Position numbers and translations under genes: made by a program
Source: an uncultured bacterium
GTDB lineage: Bacteria; DRYD01
NCBI GenBank assembly: GCA_937139605.1
Contig: CAKZQG010000010.1
Location: 1-7,489, forward strand
Direction: 5' to 3'
DNA length: 7,489 nt
Notes under the pieces: generated by a model
Seen by the model: only the letters and a program-made list of their open reading frames with translations
What the model was told of the DNA's origin: nothing
Databases searched by the model: none
In this document: positions 1 to 7,391 of the stretch, piece after piece
Layout: each line of letters starts with the position of its first letter
Numbering within the stretch: position 1 is the stretch's first letter

Positions 1-114
1 AACCACCTACAGGATTACCAAAACCACCTACAGGATTACCAAAACCACCTACAGGATTACCAAAACCACCTACAGGATTACCAAAACCACCTACAGGACT
101 ACCAAAACCACCTA
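1..114 (-). repeat. 21-bp in-frame tandem repeat encoding GGFGNPV
   Basis: Five consecutive 21-base units begin at 1, 22, 43, 64 and 85, followed by a degenerate sixth at 106. The first four are identical base for base, and the fifth differs by one substitution that turns Asn into Ser. Because 21 is a multiple of three, gain or loss of units changes protein length without breaking the frame. The array is cut by the window edge, so the copy number is unknown. There is no spacer sequence between units. Confidence 0.95.
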
Positions 115-328
115 TTGGGTTCATAGAAATAGGAGAAAAACTATTATTAAAAGAGTTCAACATATTTCTTAAAAACATTAGTAATAAAGGTATTAGATAA
201 TCTAAATTCTGACCGCTTAATAGCAAAGAATCATTTATATTATAAATAGAATTAGCGTTATTAAATCCAACATTATTAAATCCAACATTATTTATAGAAT
301 TTGAAAATATATTATTATTTATCCTCAT
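1..328 (-). CDS. Partial glycine-rich GGFGNPV heptapeptide-repeat protein (C-terminus outside window)
   Basis: I do not recognise this protein. The start is ATG at 328-326, seven bases after a GGGGGG run, and the frame stays open for 109 codons to the left edge. The N-terminus is Asn-rich (MRINNNIFSNSINN) with a short duplication of NVGFN at about residues 14-23. A hydrophobic stretch, LDYLIPLLLMFLRNML, covers roughly residues 43-58 and could be a membrane-associated helix. From about residue 73 the protein becomes perfect heptapeptides: one GGFGSPV, then GGFGNPV copies running off the edge. There is no obvious cleavable signal peptide, so secretion is not shown. The gene lies downstream of the M23 hydrolase on the same strand, with a 150-base spacer that suggests its own leader. 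Gly/Phe/Asn/Pro repeats of this kind are usually flexible or self-associating, but function is unknown. The reading frame is well supported because the repeat is in frame and codon use matches the neighbours. Confidence 0.75.
   Translation of the reverse strand, partial: MRINNNIFSNSINNVGFNNVGFNNANSIYNINDSLLLSGQNLDYLIPLLLMFLRNMLNSFNNSFSPISMNPIGGFGSPVGGFGNPVGGFGNPVGGFGNPVGGFGNPVGG
258..287 (-). repeat. 15-bp direct duplication encoding NVGFN
   Basis: Two identical adjacent copies of TTATTAAATCCAACA (plus strand) lie at 258-272 and 273-287. They duplicate five codons near the N-terminus of the repeat protein. This is a second, independent in-frame tandem duplication in the same short gene, which suggests the locus is prone to slippage. 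Confidence 0.85.
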
Positions 329-3954: not shown

Positions 3955-5370
3955 ATGAAAATATATAATACTTTAACTAACAAAATAGAGGAATTTATGG
4001 AGATAGAAAAAGGAAAGGTTAAAATATATTGTTGTGGTCCAACTGTATATGATTACCCCCATATAGGGAATTTAAGAACATTTTGTGCCGTAGATTTCCT
4101 TGTTAGAACATTTGAATATTTTAACTATGAAGTTATATACGTTATGAATATAACAGATGTGGATGATAAAATAATAAAAAACATAAAAGAACAAAAAACC
4201 AGTTTAAAAGAATATACTTTAAAATACGAAAATATATTTTTTGAAAGTATAGAAAAACTTAATATAAGAAAAGCTAATTTTTATCCAAAAGCTACCGAAC
4301 ATATAAATGAAATGATAGAAATAATAAAAAAATTACTAGAAAAAGGGATAGCGTATAAAACAGAAGACGGAAGTATATATTATTCTATAAATAAATTTAA
4401 AGATTATGGGAAATTATCTAAGATAAAATTGGATAATTTAAAAGTTGGAGCAAGGGTAAATGTAGATGAATATGATAAAGAAAATCTAGTAGATTTTGCC
4501 TTATGGAAAGCTTATAATGAAGAGGATTTGGATGTATATTGGGAAACGGAAATAGGGAAAGGAAGACCAGGTTGGCATATAGAATGTAGTGCTATGAATA
4601 GAAAATATCTAAATCAGCCGTTTGATATTCATGCAGGAGGTATAGATTTGATATTTCCACATCATGAAAATGAGATTGCCCAATCTGAAGCGGCCTTTGA
4701 TACTAAATTAGCTAACTACTGGTTCCATGTTAATCATTTAATAGTAGAAGGCCAAAAAATGTCGAAATCTTTAAAAAATATTATAACTATAAAAGATATA
4801 GATAACACATTAGCTCTTAGAATATTATACCTACAAACTCACTATAGAAATAAATTAAATTTTACTTTTGAAAACTATAAAGGTTCTAAAACTGCTTTAA
4901 ACTCTTTATTAGCTTTTACTAATAACATATTTGATATAATGACTTATTTTTCTTTTCAAAAAGATCAAAAAACTAATATAAATCCTAATATAAAGTCAAT
5001 AGTAGATAATTATAAAACTAATTTTGAATTAGCTTTAAAAGATGATTTAAACACCCCAAAAGCTATTTCCCTTCTTTTTGAATTAATTAATAATTTAAAT
5101 AATATAATTAATAAAAATCCTAAAGATATAAATTATTTTGATGCTGAATATATTTTTAATGTTATAAAAGAAACAGACAAAGTATTTGGCTTAAAATTAA
5201 CAGAATTTGAAGAAATAGATCAAGAAGTTAAAAATTTAATGTTAAAAAGAAATGAATTTAGAAAAAATAAACAATATGAGCAAGCTGATATAATAAGAAA
5301 TGAAATATTAAATAGGGGTTATATAGTAGAAGATACTTCCTGGGGTAGTAGAGTAAGAAAAAAAATATAA
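3955..5370 (+). CDS. cysS: Cysteinyl-tRNA synthetase
   Basis: This class I aminoacyl-tRNA synthetase attaches cysteine to tRNA-Cys in two ATP-dependent steps. At 471 residues it is full length (the E. coli enzyme has 461). The HIGH motif is HIGN at 36-39 and the KMSKS loop is exact at 268-272. The zinc ligands that recognise the cysteine thiol are all present: Cys27 (CCGPTVYD), Cys211 (GWHIECSAM), His236 and Glu240 (FPHHENE). The insertion and helical-bundle region follow, with the DALR-like segment around FELALKDDLNTPKAI. The tail (EQADIIRNEILNRGYIVEDT) is the family's normal C-terminus. The start is set by AAAGGAG ten bases upstream, and the N-terminus KIYNTLTNKIEEF matches the family. The PolX-like gene follows after 14 bases, so the two are probably co-transcribed. 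No sign of truncation or reassigned codons. Confidence 0.98.
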   Translation: MKIYNTLTNKIEEFMEIEKGKVKIYCCGPTVYDYPHIGNLRTFCAVDFLVRTFEYFNYEVIYVMNITDVDDKIIKNIKEQKTSLKEYTLKYENIFFESIEKLNIRKANFYPKATEHINEMIEIIKKLLEKGIAYKTEDGSIYYSINKFKDYGKLSKIKLDNLKVGARVNVDEYDKENLVDFALWKAYNEEDLDVYWETEIGKGRPGWHIECSAMNRKYLNQPFDIHAGGIDLIFPHHENEIAQSEAAFDTKLANYWFHVNHLIVEGQKMSKSLKNIITIKDIDNTLALRILYLQTHYRNKLNFTFENYKGSKTALNSLLAFTNNIFDIMTYFSFQKDQKTNINPNIKSIVDNYKTNFELALKDDLNTPKAISLLFELINNLNNIINKNPKDINYFDAEYIFNVIKETDKVFGLKLTEFEEIDQEVKNLMLKRNEFRKNKQYEQADIIRNEILNRGYIVEDTSWGSRVRKKI

Positions 5371-5384
5371 AAAAATTAATCATA

Positions 5385-7391
5385 ATGAAAAACAATAACA
5401 TTTATAATAGTTTAAAAAATATAAACGAAGTAGATAAAACCGATGAAATTAATTTAATAGAAGATATTATTTATAAAATTAAAGAATATACTTTTCTGTT
5501 AAGTTTAGCTAATGAAAATGAAGAAAAAATTAAATATTATAAAAGAAAAATTAAATTCTTAGAAGATTTTTTTTATTTTTTAAAAAATCAAAATATTCTA
5601 ATAAATTTACAATATTTTTTAAATTACAAAAAAATAGATAAAAATATTTATCAAAAATTTCTAGAAATTCAAAATCAAAAAATATTTAAAAATTATTACA
5701 AAGTACTCCTAAAAGCTACTCTTTTTAAATTAATTGATTTAGTTAGTATAAAAATAGATAATTATACAGAATATATAGAAGAATTAGCTAAAAAAAATCT
5801 AAATAATTTTGATGAAATTCTAAGGAAATATAAAATATTTAATTTACAAGATTTAAATAATAGATTAAAAAATTCAAAAATTTTTTTTAAAATCTTTTCC
5901 AATTTTTTAATAAACATTTTAAAATCTCTTAATTTGCCTGATTTAAAAGATTTAGATTACCTAATAAATGATTTAATAAATCCAAAAAAAATAACAAATT
6001 TTCTAATTGAAAACTATTATAAACAAAATAGTTTTTTTTATGAAATATATTTTAAATTTTTAGAAATAAGGAATTATTTTAAAAATAGTGGTTTAAATTT
6101 TATAGTAAGTAATTCTATTTCAAAGTTTGTTTTAAATATAAATGAAATAACTTTTATTATACACTATAAAAAAAACTTAAAAAGTATTATTAATTTAATA
6201 AAGAATCTCTCTTATTATTTGAACTTGAAAATAATTAAAATAGAAAAAGAAAAACTAATTAATAACGATTATTTAATTAAAATATATTTTTATAATTTAA
6301 AGGTTCCTTTAATTTTAGTATTTTCCGAAGATATTTTTAATTTTTTATTATATGATTTATATTTTATCTATAAAGATACAATAAATGAAGAGATTTTTTT
6401 TAAAAATATTCTTAAAGTATCTAATTATTTTTCTTTAAAAGATTTTAACAAACATTTCTTTAAAACAAACAAATATAATGATTTAAAATATGATTTAAAT
6501 AAAATAAAAGATTTTGATAACATAAAATTTTATGAGTTATTTTATAACTACTTTGGTTTAAATCATATACCATCTGAACTTTCTGATTATCCTAATATAC
6601 TTGAAATAGCTAAAAATAAGGATTTTAAAGATTTAATTGCTTTAGATGATATAAAAGGAGATTTACATATACATACCAATCTATCAGACGGGCTTAATTC
6701 CATTAATGAAATTTTTAATTTTATTAGATTTAATAAAACAAATTATAAATATATTGGAATAACAGATCATGTAGATCAAGTAAATCTGAATAAATTAATA
6801 GAATTAAAAAATTATATAAAAAATAATTTAACTTCTGATAAATTAAAGATTATTTTAGGAGTAGAAGAAAATATAGATGAAAATGGTATTTTATATTATC
6901 AAAAATTAGATGGTAACTTACAATCAGATTTTATAAAAAATATTGATTTCATAAATGCTTCTATTCATTCAAATTTTAATTTATCAGAAGAAGAACAATA
7001 TAATAGATTAATAAAAATAGCTAAATCTAAAAATCCGAAAATTATAGCGATATCACATTTAACTACTAGAATCTTAAATATAAGAAAACCCATAAATTTA
7101 AATATAAACAAAATCCTAAAAATTATAAATGAATTAAACAAAAATAATAAATATATTGAAATAAATTGTCATTTAGATAGACTAGATGTAGATTATAATA
7201 TCTTAAGAGAATATACTTTTAAATATAATATTTTACCTAAGGTAGTTATATCTACAGATAGTCATAATATTAATCATATAGATTATATGGAATATGGGGT
7301 AAAAATAGCTAGAAAATCTTTGATTCCAAAGCACAATGTATTAAATACTAAAGAAAAATTTTTTGATATATTTTATATAAGGAATTTATAA
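5385..7391 (+). CDS. PolX-family protein with intact PHP nuclease domain and degenerate polymerase core
   Basis: The layout matches bacterial family X DNA polymerase (PolX/YshC): N-terminal helix-hairpin-helix region, nucleotidyltransferase core, C-terminal PHP domain. Residues 27-62 match the first helices. The PolX linker IPSELSDYPNILEIAKN (395-411) leads into the PHP domain (425-668). PHP metal ligands appear complete: H428, H430, D435, H462 (TDH), E494, H528 (ASIHS), H558, D625 and H627 (STDSH), plus the PolX signature HLDRLD (596-601). By hand alignment, the polymerase motif GS...GDID becomes NS (243-244)...NEIT (253-256), so its two aspartates are E254 and T256. The third aspartate becomes P308. 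The hairpin loops PGIGK, PGLG and PGFG become KKIDK (82-86), VSIK (120-123) and SKIF (164-167). Expected activity is therefore 3'-5' exonuclease or AP-site repair, not synthesis. It is about 100 residues longer than usual PolX. No ribosome site precedes the ATG, so translation may be coupled to cysS. Confidence 0.85.
   Translation: MKNNNIYNSLKNINEVDKTDEINLIEDIIYKIKEYTFLLSLANENEEKIKYYKRKIKFLEDFFYFLKNQNILINLQYFLNYKKIDKNIYQKFLEIQNQKIFKNYYKVLLKATLFKLIDLVSIKIDNYTEYIEELAKKNLNNFDEILRKYKIFNLQDLNNRLKNSKIFFKIFSNFLINILKSLNLPDLKDLDYLINDLINPKKITNFLIENYYKQNSFFYEIYFKFLEIRNYFKNSGLNFIVSNSISKFVLNINEITFIIHYKKNLKSIINLIKNLSYYLNLKIIKIEKEKLINNDYLIKIYFYNLKVPLILVFSEDIFNFLLYDLYFIYKDTINEEIFFKNILKVSNYFSLKDFNKHFFKTNKYNDLKYDLNKIKDFDNIKFYELFYNYFGLNHIPSELSDYPNILEIAKNKDFKDLIALDDIKGDLHIHTNLSDGLNSINEIFNFIRFNKTNYKYIGITDHVDQVNLNKLIELKNYIKNNLTSDKLKIILGVEENIDENGILYYQKLDGNLQSDFIKNIDFINASIHSNFNLSEEEQYNRLIKIAKSKNPKIIAISHLTTRILNIRKPINLNINKILKIINELNKNNKYIEINCHLDRLDVDYNILREYTFKYNILPKVVISTDSHNINHIDYMEYGVKIARKSLIPKHNVLNTKEKFFDIFYIRNL

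Follow-up and report, generated by a model that had tools for sequence, protein, structure and literature searches.

The gene at positions 5385-7391 (+) of the window, the stretch of 7,489 nucleotides analysed here, most probably encodes a noncanonical PolX that acts as a PHP nuclease, its former polymerase half scaffolding DNA during gap or nick clean-up; we place the probability of this reading at roughly 0.8. By analogy with characterized enzymes, the product is most likely an Mn-dependent repair nuclease that would trim 3' ends. A polymerase-dead, exonuclease-active PolX was published in 2022 (PMC9226535), so the kind is already known, and what differs here is the loss of the helix-hairpin-helix (HhH) motifs. 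The gene extends polymerase-dead PolX enzymes to an uncultured thermophilic phylum and presents a further stage of decay, in which the gap-gripping hairpins are also gone, yet parts of the polymerase core remain under selection.

Gene, domains and host

The following features of the window are referred to throughout, each with the evidence that defines it:

3955..5370, + strand: cysS, cysteinyl-tRNA synthetase, immediately 5' of polX (gene call, domain match)
5385..7391, + strand: polX, 668 aa, predicted noncanonical (polymerase-dead) PolX (ORF calls, motif alignment, structural match)
5385..6647, + strand: N-terminal half, residues 1-421, with decayed 8-kDa, thumb, palm, fingers and linker parts (profile alignment, structural match)
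5526..5549, + strand: basic helix KIKYYKRK in the 8-kDa domain, residues 48-55, family-invariant (alignment)
5631..5669, + strand: former first HhH, residues 83-95, both glycines gone; D85, K86, N87, K91 and E94 are family-invariant (alignment)
5721..5786, + strand: former second HhH in the thumb, residues 113-134, glycines gone; partial deletion in the sister genus (alignment)
6144..6152, + strand: E254-I-T256, in the palm columns of the first two catalytic Asp (alignment columns)
6306..6308, + strand: P308, palm position of catalytic Asp 3 (alignment columns)
6648..7388, + strand: PHP nuclease domain, residues 422-668, with nine metal ligands (Pfam and PRK matches, motif columns)

The polX ORF is uninterrupted, begins with ATG and is separated from cysS by 14 bases; it is the sole PolX match found in the source genome. 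The cysS-polX order recurs in the second genome of the source genus, and the neighbourhood is not conserved across genera, where cysS-polX, prs-rodA-polX and, in the sister family, polX-ligA arrangements were found. GC content is 14.1% in the N-terminal half, 18.5% in the PHP part and 24.1% in cysS, with an identical GC3 of 9.3% in both halves of polX.

The host is a MAG of Candidatus Calescibacterota (1.88 Mb draft, 88.5% complete), and the window is the whole of its contig 10. The source organism is a hot-spring bacterium from a tiny uncultured phylum; Calescamantes, the lineage that includes ‘Candidatus Calescibacterium sp. SKYB25’, have been reported from thermal springs (PMC4791363). The phylum was sampled through seven genomes from two families, all of them incomplete MAGs (71-90% complete). 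At the contig end, positions 1-114 of the window hold a 21-base tandem repeat in 5.4 copies, encoding PVGGFGN repeats in an ORF at 2-328 (-); this repeat may be the reason for the assembly break there.

Polymerase, hairpin and nuclease motifs

Motif columns were read across 160 PolX-type proteins from many lineages; a scan of genome contigs with a single sequence gave no match. The 127 with an acidic triad served as the canonical reference, and the other 33, which lack it, include several that miss the region altogether. In the canonical proteins the three palm columns are D (100%), D (100%) and D/E (100%); the window protein carries E254, T256 and P308 and thus does not share the three acidic palm residues of canonical PolX, as the earlier note had read from the sequence. 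The dNTP motif GSxRR is replaced by NSISK, and I328 and Y329 occupy the two fingers columns in which 100% of canonical PolX have TG. As shown at the level of sequence, the PolX at 5385-7391 would be unable to bind the two catalytic metals or a dNTP.

All six HhH glycines are likewise absent. The columns of the first motif that hold glycine in 94% and 98% of canonical proteins are K83 and D85, those of the second (83% and 99%) are S121 and K123, and the hairpin glycine columns of the third are D/N. This agrees with the earlier note, which had described three hairpins stripped of their glycines and a gap-free alignment of residues 113-134 to the canonical second HhH; the latter also holds, with a deletion at this place in the sister genus. 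The broader statement that the DNA-gripping motifs were lost is only partly right: it stands for the hairpin glycines but not for KIKYYKRK, K86, K91 and E94, which do not vary among the five family members. KIKYYKRK aligns with the canonical F-K-I-R-A-Y-R-x-A, with K48 and Y52 in columns that hold K/R and Y/F in canonical proteins; at the position of K91, only 60% of canonical PolX have lysine. The invariant columns of the 8-kDa domain may correspond to the 5'-phosphate pocket (K35, Y39) and the lyase lysine (K72) of Pol beta.

The PHP half retains all nine metal ligands (HHHEHHEDH) in the motif columns, so that the claim of untouched PHP ligands is confirmed. Pfam PHP matches residues 426-596, and PRK08609.1 (PolX) matches residues 382-657 only, at 1.7e-45 and below its cut-off. 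By sequence, the domain matches the PHP of PolX best and other PHP families far more weakly. The nuclease of Bacillus subtilis PolX is crippled by mutation of F440, R469, R474, N498, R503 or K545 (PMC6616362); by motif position, the window protein has the identical counterparts F531, R562, R567, N594, R599 and K644, the pairing of K545 with K644 being the least certain.

Fold and selection of the N-terminal half

No library model matched the N-terminal half in the PRK and Pfam scan. In profile-profile comparison with 125 canonical N-terminal halves, it aligned over 322 columns with its linker included (E 5.5e-5); without the linker, it reached a score of 23.1 across 240 collinear columns, and the best of 100 column shuffles reached 21.5 over 18 columns. 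The 8-kDa and thumb segments alone exceeded the shuffles (23.5 vs 20.6), and the palm and fingers segment alone gave no significant alignment to canonical PolX. With only the four closest family sequences, AlphaFold2 returned a poor model of this half (pLDDT 46). With 45 sequences including canonical PolX, pLDDT rose to 78 with a pTM of 0.71, and the model matched Thermus thermophilus PolX (3AU6) best (Z 32, 471 aligned, 19% identity; window residues 27-666 against 3AU6 5-571), with a Z of 30.3 to Deinococcus radiodurans PolX and of 23.6 to YcdX, the next best. Because canonical PolX stood in the 45-sequence alignment, the N-terminal fold is not fully independent of it, and the model is support rather than proof. 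The PolX domain order of 8 kDa, thumb, palm, fingers and PHP is recovered in the model, aided by the alignment, and in the collinear profile match. These results support the interpretation of the N-terminal half as a decayed PolX core with a predicted PolX-like fold. The profile alignments and the structural match rule out an unrelated domain, in keeping with the earlier assignment of the gene as a PolX homologue.

The N-terminal half could possibly have taken on a new role, in protein contact or in a DNA grip replacing the hairpins, with the PHP domain as effector. This reading is tentative, although it is compatible with the nuclease-scaffold explanation preferred here. The family-specific invariants KIKYYKRK and DKN, unlike those of canonical PolX, and the purifying selection described below speak for it, as does the net charge of the half, +18 in the window protein against a canonical median of -4. 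However, the sister genus ranges from -7 to -2, so charge is no family trait and may reflect AT-driven enrichment of lysine, and the modelled fold still matches PolX. A similarly tentative elaboration is that this phylum has converted a dead polymerase into a nuclease of DNA ends that works independently of Ku, the family-specific basic helix replacing the HhH grip.

Selection was measured in one close pair from the sister genus (L035 and L036; 43 of 577 residues differ) rather than on the window gene itself, with dN/dS of 0.143 (95% 0.088-0.238) in the N-terminal half and 0.102 (95% 0.044-0.197) in the PHP part. A codon-model fit across genera had saturated branches and was not used. Amino-acid changes in this pair number 1 of 72 in the 8-kDa domain and 4 of 107 in the palm, against 12 of 235 in the PHP domain (Fisher p 0.31 and 0.78, respectively). 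The thumb (13/76, p 0.002) and the fingers (10/46, p 0.0008) change faster. Identity between the window protein and its congener L004 is 66% in the 8-kDa domain, 59% in the palm, 56% in the fingers and 38% in the thumb. From the segment changes and these within-genus identities, it follows that the N-terminal half in its entirety has not been released to decay. Both halves are under purifying selection in the sister genus, and the earlier proposal of selection on the nuclease alone is not supported, given the dN/dS values and an 8-kDa domain and palm whose conservation equals that of the PHP domain.

The same data bear on the view that the protein amounts to a free-standing PHP phosphoesterase of the YcdX or histidinol phosphatase type, acting on a small molecule and carrying its N-terminal half as a folded remnant. 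YcdX comes next after PolX among the structural matches, and the thumb and fingers drift; nevertheless, the residues of the PolX PHP DNA path are all kept, the domain matches PolX PHP in sequence and other PHP families far more weakly, and the 8-kDa domain and palm hold as firmly as the PHP domain in the close pair, which makes this view unlikely. Nor does the protein consist of PHP alone as stand-alone PHP proteins do, given an N-terminal half of 421 residues that is under selection in relatives.

Far less probable is the persistence of a weak or altered polymerase, in which E254 and a nearby acid such as D316 could bind metal. Some PolX do have glutamate in the triad, E254 itself is an acidic residue, and four of five relatives retain D316, but position 2 is T or C and position 3 is P in all five, position 1 is N in the sister genus, GSxRR and the fingers TG are absent, and a Deinococcus PolX whose triad reads AEE is polymerase-inactive (PMC9226535). 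Neutral drift toward a pseudogene, suggested by a fast-diverging and extremely AT-rich N-terminal half, is the least credible reading, with ORFs intact in all complete relatives, dN/dS well under 1 in both halves and perfect PHP ligands.

Relatives, known systems and proposed role

The double loss of triad and HhH is common to four relatives, namely L004 from the same genus, in which a contig end removes most of the PHP domain, and L034-L036 from the sister genus, whose triad is N-C-P and whose second and third HhH are not alignable; a sequencing slip is therefore not the cause. In the sister family, the triad of L008 is altered too (N-D-R), with nearly intact HhH. Inactivation may predate the split from the sister family: a single clade was not rejected by the AU test (p 0.95), but a separate tree placed L008 beside a canonical PolX (support 93/86). 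In trees with many weak branches, the window family groups apart from the main altered cluster; the larger of them requires about 12 triad-state changes, as repeated loss would predict.

Prostova et al. found that 27.5% of non-redundant prokaryotic PolX lack triad residues and that noncanonical Deinococcus PolX has no polymerase activity but strong 3'-5' exonuclease activity (Prostova et al., 2022; PMC9226535). A 2026 survey likewise found stronger conservation at the PHP site than at that of the polymerase (PMC12926913). The window protein resembles the noncanonical enzymes of D. radiodurans and D. gobiensis in its altered triad, missing dNTP motifs, full PHP site and domain order. Well-conserved 8-kDa and thumb domains are typical of noncanonical PolX, although not group-defining (PMC9226535), and this trait is not found in the window protein, which lacks every HhH glycine and has a decayed thumb, partly deleted in the sister genus. 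The setting differs as well, as a search of the phylum's seven genomes gave no Ku. With canonical PolX (T. thermophilus 3AU2/3AU6, B. subtilis), the protein has the overall fold, linker and PHP domain in common but not the catalytic aspartates, GSxRR, fingers TG or HhH glycines. The PolX-like proteins of Actinobacteria are also PolX-type PHP proteins without a working polymerase (PMC12926913); they lack the polymerase region, whereas the window protein has it, palm and fingers included, and the region is conserved in relatives. In genus g110, a separate lineage from the window family, PolX (L157/G352, L160/G113) has a P-E-K triad and has lost most HhH glycines, with HHHEHHEDH kept.

From these comparisons, an ancestral gap-filling polymerase would have lost catalytic-metal and dNTP binding and would now act as a PHP nuclease. 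By extension from the B. subtilis and Deinococcus enzymes, the PHP site would coordinate divalent metals and, in an Mn2+-dependent manner, trim nucleotides or blocked ends from 3' termini, and it may also cut AP sites. The former polymerase half most likely holds DNA and positions the 3' end for the PHP site. Grip and scaffold would come from the 8-kDa basic helix and the palm, and the thumb and fingers, which a polymerase requires to insert nucleotides, would be left to drift. Gap or nick clean-up, probably ahead of Pol I and ligase, is proposed because Ku was found in none of the seven phylum genomes; at 71-90% completeness, its absence is uncertain for any single genome. A role in Ku-dependent end joining was accordingly set aside. 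In the sister family, L008 polX (612-2378, -) lies directly before ligA, the NAD-dependent DNA ligase gene (2-592, -), a single case that fits a role near ligation.

PolX as sole AP endonuclease is not supported, as the source genome holds a distant deoxyribonuclease IV (Nfo)-like ORF (L174 122-958, +), far below the curated cut-off. An Nfo-like match is also present in three sister-genus genomes. The Xth match in the source genome is very weak and resembles a generic protein of the endonuclease/phosphatase fold. The window family opens to test how a polymerase core serves a PHP nuclease without polymerization and whether a dead PolX can take part in repair without Ku-dependent end joining.

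Other decayed forms were also observed. L153 and L155 (G097, G221), from one genus, are full-length PolX homologues with a D-N-S triad and the first HhH kept, and their PHP ligands have changed from HHHEHHEDH to RSAERPEGQ or RGAERLEGQ. Purifying selection acts on the pair, with an overall dN/dS of 0.20 and a value of 0.16 for the PHP part, and it looks like a conserved double pseudoenzyme. L171 and L172 (G031, G400), PHP proteins of the PolX type and roughly 300 aa long, have no polymerase region and carry the altered ligands HHHEPKEDH.
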